Below are positions 3,031 to 21,752 of a stretch of 22,059 nucleotides of DNA, piece after piece. Both the position numbers and the translations under genes were made by a program. The first letter of the stretch is position 1. Each line of letters begins with the position of its first letter. Below the pieces are notes generated by a model. It was not told the origin of the DNA, searched no databases, and saw only the letters and a list, made by a program, of their open reading frames with translations. The stretch is from a virus: positions 1 through 22,059 of the IMG/VR virus record IMGVR_UViG_3300036901_000045; one strand, given 5' to 3'.

Positions 3031-3231
3031 ATGGCGAGAGGCGGGCTGTGCGGAAGGTGCGGGGGACGAAGGCGGGGGTCTCAGGCCCGCGCCGCCCAGC
3101 CGGTGGCCACCTGCGCGGAGTGCGGCTACGCGATCTGCGAACGTCATGCCCGGTGGGACGCTGACGCGGCGCGGGATGTCTGCTCAGCCTGCGCCCGGCG
3201 GCTCGGCCTCCGCGTGATCAGCCGCAGCTAG
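3031..3231 (+). CDS. Small cross-brace zinc-finger protein
   Basis: A 66-residue basic protein starting at ATG 3031, six bases after the previous stop (tag-gagcgc-ATG). The Cys/His spacing is C7-x2-C10, C28-x2-C31, C36-x2-H39, C51-x2-C54. Four metal-ligand pairs in this order are the hallmark of cross-brace folds such as FYVE, B-box and RING fingers, with two interleaved zinc sites. I see this pattern directly; the fold and any function are inference. Its 3' end overlaps the 3' end of the minus-strand LIM-like gene by 48 bases, a convergent overlap in which both frames make sensible protein until close to their stops. It is unlikely to be a ubiquitin ligase in this context; DNA or protein binding is more plausible. 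Confidence 0.6.
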   Translation: MARGGLCGRCGGRRRGSQARAAQPVATCAECGYAICERHARWDADAARDVCSACARRLGLRVISRS

Positions 3232-3435
3232 CGCGGAGTCGCGGGCGCGGGTGTCCTCGCCCGGGTTCTCCCGGTTGATGCGCTGGAAGATCGCCGTCAT
3301 CGGGCCGGGCGGCGTGTAGACCTCACGGGCCTTGGCGCACGCCTTGTGGAACACCCAGTCGGCGCTGTCCCATGAACACTGGCCTACGGGCTTGCCGCAG
3401 CGGTTGCAGTAGCCCATGACCATCTGGATCGCCAT
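3184..3435 (-). CDS. Minus-strand small zinc-finger protein (LIM-like half finger)
   Basis: An 83-residue protein encoded against the operon direction. The N-terminus has C10-x2-C13-x16-H30-x2-C33 (YCNRCGKP ... WVFHKAC), which is the ligand spacing of the first zinc site of a LIM domain. The rest is hydrophilic and ends in an Ala/Glu-rich tail. The first ATG (3435) directly follows a gaggggATG sequence, which is too close for normal Shine-Dalgarno spacing. ATG codons at residues 5 and 7 are alternatives, and the latter puts the finger at the very N-terminus. It fills the space between the cross-brace gene and the connector gene, where no other gene fits. Antisense position, small size and an independent Cys pattern suggest a moron. 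Function unknown. Confidence 0.55.
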   Translation of the reverse strand: MAIQMVMGYCNRCGKPVGQCSWDSADWVFHKACAKAREVYTPPGPMTAIFQRINRENPGEDTRARDSALAAADHAEAEPPGAG

Positions 3436-3500
3436 CCCCTCAGCTTGCCACCACCGCGCCGGGAGTGCGCCTTAGTGCTCGCCGGGGAGGTGCTGCCCTC

Positions 3501-4452
3501 GTGACGTCGCCCTATCAGTTCCCCACGCCGTACATCAACCCGGCCATACTGACTTCGGCGGCGACATTATCGGGCTGGCATCTCGTGGTCCACGATTCCC
3601 ACGCGGCAGGCCACCCCGGCCCAGCAGCTGGCCGAGCAGTACAACATCTGCCAGCGGGCCACCAACATGGTGGACACGGCGGCCAACCAGATCCTGCGCG
3701 CGACCATCACCACGGAGCAGCTCAAGGGCCCCGGCACTACCCGCTTCCAGATCGACAGCATCGGGAACGCCACCCTCATCCTGTCCCGCAGCCCGATCCT
3801 CTCGGTCACGGGCGGCCAGGCCGCACCCGCCATCCCGCCGCTGCAGTGGACTTCCATCCCGGCCGATATGTACGTGGTGGACTCGCCGCCCCTCGGGATG
3901 TACGGCACATCTGTCCCCGCCGATGCAGGCGAGTGGGGCCAGTCGGTAACGCTCGGCGGCGGCTACGTGAACACCTGGGCAGGCCGGGGCGGCTACTTCC
4001 TGCAGACGACCTACGTCAACGGATGGCCCCACTGCTCCCTCACAGCCGCGTCAGATGCCGGTGCGACCACCATTGAGGTTGACGACTGCACTGGGTGGGG
4101 ACCGCCTGCGGGGACCACCCAGGGCGCCGCCGGGGTCATCTACGATCCCGGCGGGAACGGGCAGCAGGAGACGGCGACGGTCACCGGGGCCTCCGTGGAC
4201 ACCGGGCCCGGCACGCTCACGATCACTCCGGCGCTGACCTGGCCGCACTCGCAGGGGATCATTTTCAGCGGGATGCCCTCAACCCTGTATTGGGCCACCA
4301 TATTGTTCTCGGTTTCCCAGGCACTCACGCGAGGTGCGACGGCGACGACGCCCCAGACCATTTCCCCGGCTGGGGTGTCCACGGGCAGTGGTGCAGAAGC
4401 ACTGGCGAAGTGCGCCCGCCAGATGGTCCGCGACTTCCGCCGGGTCTGGTGA
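3501..4452 (+). CDS. Head-tail connector (adaptor) protein, reading frame broken by a one-base shift near 3571-3580
   Basis: The frame from 3553 to the TGA at 4450-4452 encodes a connector: N-terminal helices (TPAQQLAEQYNICQRATNMVDTAANQ), a beta region, and a C-terminal helix (EALAKCARQMVRDFRRVW). Its N-terminus is not complete in that frame: an in-frame TGA is at 3550-3552 and no start lies before ATG 3667. The missing N-terminus is in frame 3: GTG 3501, after a GGGGAGG box, encodes TSPYQFPTPYINPAILTSAAT. Removing one G from the CGGG at 3571-3574 joins the two as ...TSAATLSAGISWSTIP.... The intact product would be about 316 residues. It would sit under the portal and dock the tail. A small beta-domain (DNA about 4055-4275) appears inserted before the C-terminal helix and resembles one in the tail tube protein. 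Cause: sequence error or true lesion. Confidence 0.7.
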
Positions 4453-4455
4453 GCC

Positions 4456-4968
4456 GTGCCCATCCTCACCGCCCAGACCTGGGTCTGGTCCATCCTCAAC
4501 GGGATGCCCATACCCGGCAACAACACGCCCCTTGAAGTGTTCGTCACCCCGCCGAACCCCGAGGAAGACCAGCTCGACCCGCACGTCTACGTCTGGCCGT
4601 CCACGGGGTCAGAAAGCCGTCAGTCCCTTCCGCGGGCGCCAGTGCCGAACCTCGGTACTACGCAGTCCGGCTGGAAGACCATGCCGCACCAGCTGGATAT
4701 TTGGGTGGTCTGGTTCCAGGACGACAGCGACCCGACTCCCGATGCCTCGTTCCCGGTGATCGTGGACGCCATCATGGACGTACTGCGGACCTGCCAGGAT
4801 CCGGTGATGCTCACGGACCCCGTGACCGGCCGCTACAGCCAGATCTACGGCACGGGCGAGCGGCTTACCTACGACATCGCGACGCCGCGCGGCGTCAACG
4901 CTGACCAGCGCATCCTCCGCTACGACGCGCGGATCGCGGCGCGCGTGCTTGAGGACTTCCAGGCGTGA
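4456..4968 (+). CDS. Probable tail terminator / head-tail joining protein
   Basis: A 170-residue protein starting at GTG 4456, three bases after the connector stop. The sequence is an alpha/beta pattern, with a helix-like VIVDAIMDVLRTCQDP, a strand-turn section (LTDPVTGRYSQIYGTGERLTYDI) and a terminal strand-helix RILRYDARIAARVLEDF. Tail terminators of long-tailed phages end similarly and have this length. They cap the growing tail tube and join it to the head connector. Position between connector and major tail protein supports this. No strong signature motif exists, so a stopper or head-closure role is possible. No signal peptide, membrane segment or Cys cluster is seen (a single Cys, at about residue 114). 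It is followed by a convergent minus-strand gene whose stop lies one base beyond its own. Confidence 0.6.
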   Translation: MPILTAQTWVWSILNGMPIPGNNTPLEVFVTPPNPEEDQLDPHVYVWPSTGSESRQSLPRAPVPNLGTTQSGWKTMPHQLDIWVVWFQDDSDPTPDASFPVIVDAIMDVLRTCQDPVMLTDPVTGRYSQIYGTGERLTYDIATPRGVNADQRILRYDARIAARVLEDFQA

Positions 4969-5580: not shown

Positions 5581-6831
5581 ATGGCACTGACTGTCCCCAG
5601 CGCCGTCTACCCCTCCGAGCGCAGGTCCATGGGCATCGGCCTGGAAGCCGCACCTGGCACCGGGGTCAACTCCCTCTACACGATCCCCGTCGCCGACTTC
5701 AATCCCGAGGACAAGGTCACCGGGCTGCTGGATGAGTCCCTCCGGTCGGCCATGGCCGCAACCTACGGCTACGTCCAGGGCCCGTACGTCGCCGACGTGG
5801 CGATCCCCAGCTCCATCGTCTACGGGGACACGATCGGGCACATCCTGTGGAACGTCCTGGGGGACATGACGGAGAGCGGCACCCCGTCCGGGACGATCAC
5901 GACCACGATCAACAACGGGCCGGGCTACGCGGCGGGAACTACCGGCCCGGTCACGATCACCGCGGGCAGCGGCTTCGGCGCCGGGTACATGCAGATGGGC
6001 ACCACCACTACCTCCGAGATCGTGCAGATCACCGGGGCGACCGCCACTACGGCGACGATCGCGACGACGACGCCCACCCGGTTCGCGCACGCCAACGCCG
6101 CCCCGGTCACCCAGGTCATCGCGCCTTACACGCACATCTTCACGCTGCTCAACGGCACCGGGAACGCGCAGCCGCCCACGCACACGATCACCGACTACAA
6201 CTACATCAACTCCAGCGTGCACGCCCGGTGGTACCCGTTCACGTGCCTGAGCGAGGTGGTCCTGACCGGGAACGCGGAGCAGCTGTTCAAGTACACCGCC
6301 AAGGGGATGGGCTACGCCAACCAGGTTCCCGGCACCACGCCCACGGTGAACGTCTCGACGGTGACCGCGATGCCCTCGTGGGACTCCCAGGTGGGCCTGG
6401 GCGGAACGGTGAGCGGCAGTCCCTACTACGGGATCGGGGAGTGGGAGATCACCCTGGACCGGGTGGTGGAGGCGTACTGGACGGCGGACGGGAGCCAGAA
6501 TCCCTACTATATTGGTAGGGGAAAATTCAAGGCGATGGGAAAGCTCAACTTCACCCCGGCGATTTCCGAAATCGCGCTCACCGAATTGCTGTCCAACACC
6601 CAGCCGCAGATGCAGATCATCCAGACCAACGCTGCCGCCAACGAGACCGTGCAGTTCGACATGCAGGTGGCCGCGTTTGACACCTCGGCGATCCAGGGCG
6701 GCAAGGCGCTCCTCGGCTACAACGATAGCGTTGAGTTCATCGGCAACACCACCAACACCGGCAACAGCGCTGGTTACAGCCCTCTGGCGATCACCGTTAC
6801 GAATCAGTTCCCGACATACAACGTCACCTAG
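5581..6831 (+). CDS. Major tail tube protein
   Basis: A 416-residue protein starting at ATG 5581. It opens with AVYPSERRSMGIGLEAAPGTGV, matching the actinobacteriophage tail-tube pattern in which an N-terminal arm is followed by 'iG.Et.~GTav..t.~ipv..~~p...~..l.dEs.RgsM...yg...G...~..~~~g~vy.D.~g.ll'. The block ESLRSAMAATYGYVQGPYVADVAIP is typical. A region rich in Thr/Gly (about residues 95-180) is inserted before the second half of the tube fold and resembles the small beta-domain in the connector. The second half has IGEWEITLDRVVEAYWTADGSQNPYYIGRGKFKAMGKLNF. The protein stacks as hexameric rings around the tape measure protein. Its position before the tail chaperones fits. Its TAG stop shares a CTAG with the minus-strand HNH gene. 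Confidence 0.87.
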   Translation: MALTVPSAVYPSERRSMGIGLEAAPGTGVNSLYTIPVADFNPEDKVTGLLDESLRSAMAATYGYVQGPYVADVAIPSSIVYGDTIGHILWNVLGDMTESGTPSGTITTTINNGPGYAAGTTGPVTITAGSGFGAGYMQMGTTTTSEIVQITGATATTATIATTTPTRFAHANAAPVTQVIAPYTHIFTLLNGTGNAQPPTHTITDYNYINSSVHARWYPFTCLSEVVLTGNAEQLFKYTAKGMGYANQVPGTTPTVNVSTVTAMPSWDSQVGLGGTVSGSPYYGIGEWEITLDRVVEAYWTADGSQNPYYIGRGKFKAMGKLNFTPAISEIALTELLSNTQPQMQIIQTNAAANETVQFDMQVAAFDTSAIQGGKALLGYNDSVEFIGNTTNTGNSAGYSPLAITVTNQFPTYNVT

Positions 6832-7475
6832 CCCGGGGCCGCAGCTTTCCGCTGCCTGTACGCTCGCGTGCCGCAGGTTCCTGAGCAGTAGAGCGCGCGG
6901 GAGGTCAGCGCCGTGAACGACGAACCGCAGACCGGGCAGGTCTCCGTTGTCGGCTCCCGGCGCCTATAGGTTCGCTCGTAGTAGTTAGCAGCCCTGTCCT
7001 GCATGCACAATTTGCAGTACCTGCGCCTCTGGCCAGCCTTGCGCCCGGTCTTGATCGTGTACCAGTAGGTGTTTTCCTCCGTGTACTCGTGATCGTTATC
7101 GCAGACCTCCTTGAGGGTCAGCGTGCCGTGCCTGCGCCTGTCTTCTATGTTCTCCGCATGCGTACCCCATTCAAGGTTGGATGCAGGCACATGCGCCGCG
7201 ATGCCGTCCCTGTGGCGGACTTCCTCGCCGTCAGGGCGAGAGCCGTGGAAGGCAAGCGCAACAAGCTGGTGGACGAGCCACATGCGGTGCACGCCATCTT
7301 TGGCGAGGTTCACCTGCGGGTAGCCGCCCACATGGCGACCGGGTTTCAGGTACCGGCCGCCGCGGTAGTTGCTCCACACGCGGCCTAGTGAGCTGACCTC
7401 GTACAGCCCCTCGTAGCCGACCACCGGCAGCCAGATCTCATCTGGCTCGAATGGCAGCGTGGCATGATCGGCCAT
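6828..7475 (-). CDS. HNH homing-type endonuclease with NUMOD4 and zinc-finger C-terminus
   Basis: A 215-residue protein in the free-standing phage homing endonuclease class. A NUMOD4 segment spans residues 11-34 (PDEIWLPVVGYEGLYEVSSLGRVWS, read as two parts EIWLPVVGYEG and YEVSSLGRVWS). The HNH core follows: first His in VHQLVALAF (H69), central RHRDG (H88-D90), and N100 in SNLEWGTHAENIEDRRRHG. Two probable zinc sites follow: C125...H129...C154-x2-C157, and C180-x2-C183...C197-x3-C201. The core is complete enough for nickase or double-strand cleavage activity. It lies antisense between the tail tube and chaperone genes, shares CTAG with the tube stop, and has visibly lower GC than its neighbours, all signs of a mobile gene. 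The ribosome site AAGAGG lies eight bases before ATG, in a hairpin loop. Confidence 0.88.
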   Translation of the reverse strand: MADHATLPFEPDEIWLPVVGYEGLYEVSSLGRVWSNYRGGRYLKPGRHVGGYPQVNLAKDGVHRMWLVHQLVALAFHGSRPDGEEVRHRDGIAAHVPASNLEWGTHAENIEDRRRHGTLTLKEVCDNDHEYTEENTYWYTIKTGRKAGQRRRYCKLCMQDRAANYYERTYRRREPTTETCPVCGSSFTALTSRALYCSGTCGTRAYRQRKAAAPG

Positions 7476-20330: not shown

Positions 20331-20666
20331 ATGCCCGCGGCCGGGGATGACTTCGAGCGCGGGCATGCCGCCGGGGCGCTTTCCGAGCGGCTCGCCGAGC
20401 ACGACCGGCACTTCACCAGGATCAACGGGTCCATGGAGCGCATCGCCGCCGAGATGCACGAACTGGTCCTGGCCGTCCAGCGCCTCGCCGACGCCGCCGA
20501 GGCCGACCGGACCACGGCCCTTACTCTCGCCGCAGGGCTGAAGGACGCGGACCAGGCCCGCCGGGACAGCACCGAGCAGCACTGGTCCCCGGTAGCGAGG
20601 CTGATAGCAGCGGTCGCGGCATTCGCCGCCCTGGCCAGCGTGATCCTCTACGCCACGTTGCACTAA
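20331..20666 (+). CDS. XhlA-like coiled-coil membrane protein of the lysis module
   Basis: A 111-residue protein with a strong Shine-Dalgarno (taggaggtgcATG). Residues 15-80 are helical with heptads (LSERLAEHDRHFTRINGSMERIAAEMHELVLAV in two stretches), then a single membrane segment near the C-terminus (ARLIAAVAAFAALASVILYA, residues ~88-107) and a three-residue end (TLH). This topology, an N-terminal coiled coil and C-terminal anchor, is that of the XhlA family encoded beside holins in many Gram-positive phages. Position after the receptor-binding genes and before a holin-like gene agrees. It would sit in the host membrane with the coiled coil in the cytoplasm. Sequence similarity is by pattern only. 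Confidence 0.6.
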   Translation: MPAAGDDFERGHAAGALSERLAEHDRHFTRINGSMERIAAEMHELVLAVQRLADAAEADRTTALTLAAGLKDADQARRDSTEQHWSPVARLIAAVAAFAALASVILYATLH

Positions 20667-20710: not shown

Positions 20711-20974
20711 TTGCGTTGGTGGAGTACGTCGTGGCTCGTGATCAAGGATGTGCTGCTGACCGGACTCGGCGTCGTGACGATCTGGTCGCAGATCCGCTCC
20801 CAGCACCCGAACGGGCTGCTGATCGGCGCGGGCCTGGCGCTCACCGTGCCGTCCGTCGCCGAGCATGTGCGGGCGCTGCTGCCCGGGCCCGGCACTGGGG
20901 CGTCCTCGCCGTCATTGCCTTCACCTGGGGAGCCGGAATCACCGCATGGGCAGCAGGGGGGGTCCGGTGAGTGA
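20711..20974 (+). CDS. Holin-like small membrane protein
   Basis: An 87-residue frame from TTG 20711 (gcgagg upstream). It begins RWWSTSWLVIKDVLLTGLGVVTIWSQI, with one hydrophobic segment, then a polar turn RSQHPNGL and a second hydrophobic stretch LLIGAGLALTVPSVAEHV, and ends in a Pro/Ser/Gly-rich hydrophilic tail. GTG 20738 would start the protein at IKDVLLTGL, a very common start among small phage membrane proteins, so the true length may be 78. Two short helices and a charged tail fit a class II holin, but actinophage membrane proteins of this size are diverse, so the call is tentative. It ends within the next gene (8-base overlap). Confidence 0.5.
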   Translation: MRWWSTSWLVIKDVLLTGLGVVTIWSQIRSQHPNGLLIGAGLALTVPSVAEHVRALLPGPGTGASSPSLPSPGEPESPHGQQGGSGE

Positions 20975-21209
20975 CGGCAGGAAGTTCCCGCTCTGGTCGT
21001 TCGTGTTCCTGGTGCTGCTGGCCTTCGCCCTGTCCGGGGCGGCGCTGCTGGTCGCCAGTAACGAGGTGAACGCCAGCCAGGCCCGGTGGTGCAGCACCCT
21101 GGTCACCCTGGACAACGCCGATCGCCACGCGCCGCCCCCGGCCACGCAGTTCGGCCGCCAGCTCGTCTCTGACTTCCGTAACCTGCGGCGCGCCTTCGGA
21201 TGCGGCTAG
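20967..21209 (+). CDS. Single-span membrane protein A (paralogue of next gene)
   Basis: An 80-residue protein from GTG 20967, which follows a GGGGGGG run and overlaps the holin-like gene by eight bases. A short basic cytoplasmic start (SDGRKFPL) precedes one membrane helix (WSFVFLVLLAFALSGAALLVA, residues 10-30), followed by about 48 residues outside. The outer part has SNEVNASQARWC, then APPPATQFGRQLVSDFRNLRRAFGCG. It aligns with the neighbour's outer part through E...A..(x)C, RxPxP / APPP, a conserved F...FR..R..GC end. The longer upstream frame is rejected since its extra sequence is Cys/Arg-rich shadow of the holin-like gene. The two conserved Cys may form a disulfide outside the membrane. 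Function unknown. Confidence 0.6.
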   Translation: MSDGRKFPLWSFVFLVLLAFALSGAALLVASNEVNASQARWCSTLVTLDNADRHAPPPATQFGRQLVSDFRNLRRAFGCG

Positions 21210-21541
21210 TGAGCGGCCCCGGTGCCACGTGGCACCCGGAGCGGGGGGAGAAGGGCGAGCGTGGCGAGAAAGGCGACAAGGGCACCAGGGGAGACCCGCT
21301 GTCCCCCCGGGTCCGCCGGGCCTTTGCCTACCTGTTCGTGTTCGTGATCATCGGCCTGGCCCTGAACCTGGCATGGTCCTACGAGCTGTCACGCGCCGGT
21401 CACGCCGACAAGTGCGCGCTGATCAGCAAGGTCGCCGCCATCAGGGTGCCGCAGCCGACCGCCGGGAACCCGTCGCGGGAAGCCTTCGCGCAGCTCGAGG
21501 CGGCGTTCCGCACGCGAGGCCGCCAGCTTGGCTGCTTCTAA
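21209..21541 (+). CDS. Single-span membrane protein B with collagen-like cytoplasmic tract
   Basis: From GTG 21209 (TAGTG overlap with the previous stop) the protein has 110 residues; ATG 21200 would add three. The N-terminus carries a run of Gly-X-Y triplets (RGEKGERGEKGDKGTRGDP), a collagen-like tract of six or so triplets, rich in Glu/Lys/Arg, then a basic stop PRVRRAF and one membrane helix (AYLFVFVIIGLALNLAWSY). The outer part ends SREAFAQLEAAFRTRGRQLGCF with two Cys at DKC and GCF, mirroring protein A. Gly-X-Y tracts usually drive trimerisation; seven or fewer triplets is short for stability, so another role such as flexible charged linker is possible. It belongs to the small membrane gene cluster after the tail genes. 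Confidence 0.6.
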   Translation: MSGPGATWHPERGEKGERGEKGDKGTRGDPLSPRVRRAFAYLFVFVIIGLALNLAWSYELSRAGHADKCALISKVAAIRVPQPTAGNPSREAFAQLEAAFRTRGRQLGCF

Positions 21542-21563: not shown

Positions 21564-21752
21564 ATGAGTAACGACACCCCGCGCCGCCATTACGCCGGCG
21601 TGAACTTCGGCACCCTGTTCGTCATCGCGGCGATCCTGTGCTTCATCCTCGCGGCGCTTGAGGCGTTCGGGACCATCAGGATCTCCGGGGGCGCCGCGCT
21701 CGGGCTGGTCGCCGTGGGGCTCGCCCTGTGGGCCGCCGGCGGCTTCGCGTGA
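21564..21752 (+). CDS. Small two-span membrane protein
   Basis: A 62-residue protein starting at ATG 21564; ggatcc seven to eight bases upstream is a weak ribosome site. An in-frame upstream ATG (21528) overlaps the previous gene and is less likely. After SNDTPRRHYAG, two hydrophobic helices follow: VNFGTLFVIAAILCFILAAL and SGGAALGLVAVGLALWAAGG, joined by EAFGTIRI. The chain ends immediately after the second helix (FA). The size and topology are compatible with an antiholin or with the membrane proteins commonly found in actinophage lysis cassettes. No further motif is visible. Confidence 0.55.
   Translation: MSNDTPRRHYAGVNFGTLFVIAAILCFILAALEAFGTIRISGGAALGLVAVGLALWAAGGFA

Follow-up and report, generated by a model that had tools for sequence, protein, structure and literature searches.

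Gene order and protein architecture

Near the right end of a viral DNA fragment, two adjacent genes, P0001 and P0002, encode small single-span membrane proteins, and the locus raises the question of what these proteins do beside a holin-like gene and whether they are related to each other. The fragment, IMG/VR record IMGVR_UViG_3300036901_000045, was analyzed over its whole length of 22,059 bases (positions 1–22,059), referred to in the following as the window. It carries siphovirus tail genes, and its genes have a GC3 of ~0.9. The features at the right end are:

20331–20666, + strand: P0003, 111 aa, coiled-coil-like body and C-terminal TM helix (residues 88–106)
20711–20974, + strand: P0004, 2-TM holin-like protein, 87 aa in frame 0
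~20860 to 20970, + strand: −1 frame over the 3' end of P0004, hydrophobic segment ...RHWGVLAVIAFTWGAGITAWAAGGVR
20967–21209, + strand: P0001, 80 aa, GTG start, single-span
21209–21541, + strand: P0002, 110 aa, GTG start, single-span; an alternative in-frame ATG at 21200 is possible
21245–21298, + strand: Gly-X-Y tract of P0002 (GEK GER GEK GDK GTR GDP), predicted cytoplasmic
21564–21752, + strand: P0005, 62-aa 2-TM holin-like protein, downstream of P0002

The TAG stop of P0001 (21207–21209) and the GTG start of P0002 overlap by one base. Both of the single-span reading frames described in the original prediction are present, as is the adjacent holin-like gene, with the 2-TM gene P0004 upstream and a further 2-TM gene, P0005, downstream. 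No endolysin gene was found in the window, and the contig ends at 22059, downstream of P0002 and P0005. At the left end, the products of positions 173–1731 include a nucleotide-sugar epimerase (PF01370) and, with a score under the cut-off, possibly a sugar transferase (PF04488). A minus-strand ORF between tail genes (6828–7475), in which HNH-like and zinc-finger-like features were seen by eye, is possibly a homing endonuclease.

The TM helix of P0001 spans residues 12–30 (hydropathy 2.72) and is flanked by two K/R residues on the N side versus one on the other side; hydropathy and charge together predict an N-in/C-out orientation. The helix of P0002 spans residues 38–56 (hydropathy 2.22), and the flanking K/R residues, five on the N side versus two on the other, predict the same orientation. 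As the original prediction had described, both outer domains have a Cys shortly after the helix (Cys42 in P0001; Cys69 in P0002), a Pro-rich middle and a second Cys near the end (Cys79 and Cys109, respectively), the C-terminal ends being FRNLRRAFGC in P0001 and FRTRGRQLGC in P0002. The AlphaFold model of P0001, of moderate confidence (pLDDT 74.6), has helices at residues 7–53 and 61–77 joined by a loop. That of P0002, also moderate (pLDDT 71.0), has helices at 33–77 and 89–107, with residues 1–32 outside any helix. The two models thus have a common topology of a long helix, a loop and a second helix, and the modeling of P0002 from an alignment with the P0001 family may bias its model.

Gly-X-Y repeats are found in P0002 and are absent from P0001, again as described. 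The six triplets are uninterrupted, lie N-terminal to the helix and were equalled in 1 of 20,000 shuffles; no other same-strand open frame of at least 60 aa in the window has a run of at least five. Despite the six perfect triplets, PF01391 scored P0002 at 14.8 bits, under its gathering cut-off of 27.2. The first match of P0002 (L003) was an unrelated tail fiber, matched via the collagen repeats, and phrog_26303, considered as a lead, reached nothing but long collagen-like ORFs.

P0001 belongs to a family of actinobacterial phage membrane proteins

P0001 matches no family in Pfam, PHROG or NCBIfam, and neither a PDB sequence search nor a Foldseek fold search, its model being of moderate confidence (pLDDT 74.6), gave a meaningful match. 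A scan of viral contigs with P0001 led to L004 (IMGVR 3300036820_000026), an HMM search of 347 Streptosporangiales genomes to L127 and, in a follow-up, to L143 and L144, and scans with enlarged alignments to L157–L160 and L170. The same genes were reached twice in some cases (L157 = L143, L159 = L127, L160 = L144), and the P0001-type family comprises seven distinct loci including the window, i.e., six others.

The family has a single N-terminal TM helix followed by an outer-domain motif of W-C-x2-L-x2-L-D, P, G, L-R and a terminal C, and P0001 carries all of the invariant columns (RWC..L..LD..P..G....LR..GC). When an HMM was built from five members (L157, L158, L159, L160 and L170), the outer domain of P0001 scored 34.3 bits and L004 scored 21.5 bits against it, with 0 of 5,000 shuffles as good in either case. 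In L004, a single gene combines a Gly-X-Y tract, a TM helix and an outer domain with 53% identity to that of P0001. On sequence grounds, P0001 falls into an unnamed family whose members are small membrane proteins with a single span, encoded by siphoviruses and prophages of actinobacteria.

Other searches added nothing to the family. By tblastn, neither phage records, queried with P0001, P0002 and the L004 protein, nor plasmid records, queried with the L004 protein, gave a match. An L157-type member used as a tblastn query gave chance matches only, the 629-aa tail protein of the window found no relatives, class-wide genome searches gave only noise, and pattern scans gave chance matches except for L004.

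The family lies in lysis cassettes of relatives

In five prophage or metagenome relatives (L157, L158, L159, L160 and L170), the gene order is 2-TM gene, P0001-type gene and endolysin gene, with a 58-aa ORF separating the last two in L159 and a short gap between them in L160. The endolysin consists of CHAP and PG-binding domains in L157 and L159, of CHAP alone in L158, of GH25 in L170 and of Amidase_2 in L160, giving four architectures among the five relatives. Endolysins of differing architecture follow one and the same pair of membrane genes, which suggests that the catalytic gene was exchanged and the membrane pair retained in these cassettes.

The window has its 2-TM gene, P0004, directly upstream of P0001, and the 2-TM genes of the five relatives are homologues of P0004. 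Most of the 2-TM proteins of the relatives start with W-L-K-V-V-R-D. The N-terminus of P0004 is a modest fit to its relatives (P ~0.011), and the tail protein upstream in the window matches the L143 tail protein (E 3e-10). Because a 2-TM gene and an endolysin gene flank the P0001-type gene in these relatives, P0001 probably belongs to a lysis cassette as well. The suggestion that the proteins are lysis components or partners of a holin thereby gains support from five independent relatives, from viruses whose hosts are soil actinobacteria. The synteny is that of the P0001-type gene with the 2-TM gene and endolysin; the tandem pair is not kept.

A P0004-type gene is missing from the L004 locus, and an endolysin was not identified next to its collagen-tailed gene either. 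A 451-aa hydrophobic, polytopic-looking ORF (3078–4433, minus strand) lies there between a tail fiber gene and the collagen-tailed gene. Related endolysins also occur in Streptomyces phages, which have other membrane proteins at the corresponding place, outside the P0001-type family.

P0002 is probably a diverged copy of P0001

The proposal that the two proteins are paralogous is moderately supported. In a single-pair BLASTP comparison, P0001 and P0002 matched with E = 0.001, and a Smith–Waterman alignment of the outer domains alone was equalled by 14 of 5,000 shuffles (P ~0.003). The comparison with the family was less favorable: the outer domain of P0002 scored 3.1 bits against the family profile (144 of 5,000 shuffles, P ~0.03), and the family HMM did not return P0002 at E < 0.01. 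It lacks the W, LD and LR of the family motif and keeps both Cys. The family aligned by hhalign against full-length P0002 gave 92%, but partly over the collagen and TM columns.

The low profile score and the failure of the family HMM to recover P0002 are what would be expected if P0002 were unrelated to P0001 and the likeness, one TM helix and two Cys, had come about by convergence. We consider this unlikely in view of the pair alignment, the adjacency and shared predicted topology of the two proteins, and the architecture of P0002, which matches that of a true member, L004. Since L004 bridges the two in architecture, its one gene joining a collagen-like tract to an outer domain of the P0001 type, P0002 is probably a tandem copy of P0001 that has diverged and has either kept or gained the collagen-like tract. 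No second family copy was found in any of the six other loci. Among the seven loci, the tandem pair occurs in the window only, and the P0001–P0002 pair as such is not conserved.

A possible frame switch in the upstream 2-TM gene

The hydrophobic segment read in the −1 frame where P0004 nears its 3' end runs to a TGA stop (20968–20970) that overlaps the GTG start of P0001 as GTGA. P0004-type genes were located at five other loci:

L159: 4729–4991
L158: 4718–4999
L157: 4721–5008
L170: 2974–3255
L160: ~4625–4914

At each of the six loci that have a P0004-type gene, codon usage favors frame 0 in the first 53 codons and the −1 frame over frame 0 in the last 26 (mean synonymous score 0.29 for −1 vs. 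−0.17 for 0); of 267 control windows taken from ordinary genes, only 3 prefer −1. In the tail of L160, the +1 frame scores above the −1 frame. The −1 frame of the six loci encodes a hydrophobic segment, and its stop lies −4 to +5 bases from the next start, which it overlaps as GTGA or ATGA in three loci. The −1 frame is favored because the frame-0 GC3 is relaxed in the tail, at 0.60–0.76 versus 0.92 in training genes; in GC-rich DNA, a Pro/Ser-rich frame 0 mirrors a hydrophobic −1 frame, and composition alone is not decisive. Over the six loci, residue-level conservation of the −1 segment was not significant and no canonical XXXYYYZ slippery heptamer was conserved at the frame switch. In five of the six, the −1 segment has no start codon of its own.

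Judged by these frame statistics, the P0004-type gene is a candidate for a frameshifted holin gene, with a −1 switch near its 3' end. A genuine switch would let the gene produce two forms of holin by a route that was not found described in the literature searched. A more elaborate scheme, which we put forward only tentatively and regard as doubtful, would combine a 1-TM accessory protein that has a cytoplasmic, trimerizing collagen-like tract and has been duplicated into collagen and non-collagen copies with a holin gene that is partly read in the −1 frame. The gene would yield a 2-TM form ending in a Pro/Ser tail and, as a fusion of different topology, a 3-TM form, and frameshifting would set the holin/antiholin ratio.

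Proposed role and alternatives

To judge from their position, the function of both proteins is most likely to help the virus burst its host. We favor, with some reserve, the reading that P0001 is a family member in a lysis cassette and P0002 its probable diverged copy, and that they have an accessory part in lysis together with the 2-TM holin-like partner. Here the family, its cassette position in relatives, the architecture and the single span were computed. In the mechanism that we infer, P0001 and P0002, in their predicted orientation, would accumulate in the membrane in late infection alongside the upstream 2-TM holin-like protein and make contact with it, and disulfides may form. Once the membrane had been opened and the endolysin was active, the outer domain would help to finish envelope disruption or would control holin triggering. 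The collagen-like tract would trimerize the cytoplasmic side of P0002.

Alternatively, P0001 might be an antiholin or lysis-inhibition protein, with an outer domain that binds the holin-like partner on the outside and delays triggering, like T4 RI. The T4 RI antiholin is a small protein with an N-terminal TM helix and a helical periplasmic domain with two Cys. P0001 resembles it in its small size, N-terminal TM helix and helical two-Cys outer domain, and the holin-like gene adjoins P0001. However, general PDB searches by sequence and by fold, using the pLDDT 74.6 model, matched P0001 to no solved structure, and we know of no established antiholin genes in such phages. Moreover, a positive action has been published for the 1-TMD proteins of mycobacteriophage F1 (PMC13056207). 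We therefore give the antiholin reading a small chance of being correct.

The original prediction also raised the possibility of a two-protein complex. A specific hetero-oligomer of P0001 and P0002, acting as a spanin-like pair, would suit the tandem genes, the one-base overlap and the common predicted topology, but it is made quite improbable by the presence of a single family member at each of the six other loci. A two-component spanin of the Gram-negative kind does not fit the actinobacterial setting either: there is no lipoprotein partner, and the lipobox of an Rz/Rz1-type spanin partner is found in neither P0001 nor P0002, whose Cys follow the TM helix and stand at the C-terminus. Small membrane proteins with outer domains can in general exclude phages, but nothing specific points to superinfection exclusion, which had also been suggested, by a protein expressed with the late genes. 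Lysis is the likelier role for genes that adjoin endolysins of four architectures, and exclusion is very improbable.

Comparison with known systems

The Gly-X-Y triplets of P0002 are shared with collagen-like phage tail fibers (PHROG tail families, PF01391), but the tract of P0002 is short and is part of a membrane protein, on the side predicted to be cytoplasmic, and not of a fiber. A collagen-like tract is not usually described in such a place, in the portion of a membrane protein that is predicted to face the cell interior.

The accessory lysis role that we favor has counterparts in actinophages, in which efficient lysis depends on a module made up of a 2-TMD and then a 1-TMD protein (PMC13056207, PMC13148394). 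In phage Girr, both LysF1a and LysF1b are required for efficient lysis (PMC13056207). The LysF1a/LysF1b genes of mycobacteriophages Girr and NormanBulbieJr have the same order in the lysis cassette as the genes described here, 2-TMD and then 1-TMD, but LysF1b is predicted to be N-out/C-in with a highly charged cytoplasmic tail, whereas P0001 is predicted to be N-in with a two-Cys outer domain (PMC13056207).

A holin/LysZ pair of corynephages is reported in PMC13148394 and PMC13056207. According to these papers, LysZ of Corynebacterium phages CL31 and Cog has a single TM helix, is proposed to be N-in/C-out and follows a 2-TMD holin. LysZ is also reported to be required in lysis and to be connected with lipid-anchored glycans. 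P0001 shares these LysZ-type traits, namely the single TM helix, the N-in/C-out orientation (by hydropathy and charge prediction) and the place after a 2-TM gene. LysZ differs in being about twice as long and in having no two-Cys domain. The gene order differs as well, with the 1-TM gene before the endolysin gene in the relatives of P0001 and after the lysin and holin genes in CL31. When CL31 clg_49 (MW582634), taken as LysZ by its place after the lysin and holin, was compared with the family by hhalign, the probability was 4.7%, with no detectable similarity; likewise, no similarity was found between the P0004-like family and the CL31 holin. In the absence of similarity on either count, P0001 is better said to work like LysZ than to be a LysZ: by analogy, it most likely resembles LysZ in place and topology and is not homologous to it.

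The original prediction had held that the pair was not a described lysis component. This holds for the sequence family, with no match in Pfam, PHROG or NCBIfam, but not for the 2-TMD plus 1-TMD module, which is already described in actinophages (PMC13056207, PMC13148394). An uncharacterized actinophage membrane-protein family gains a testable place in host lysis.
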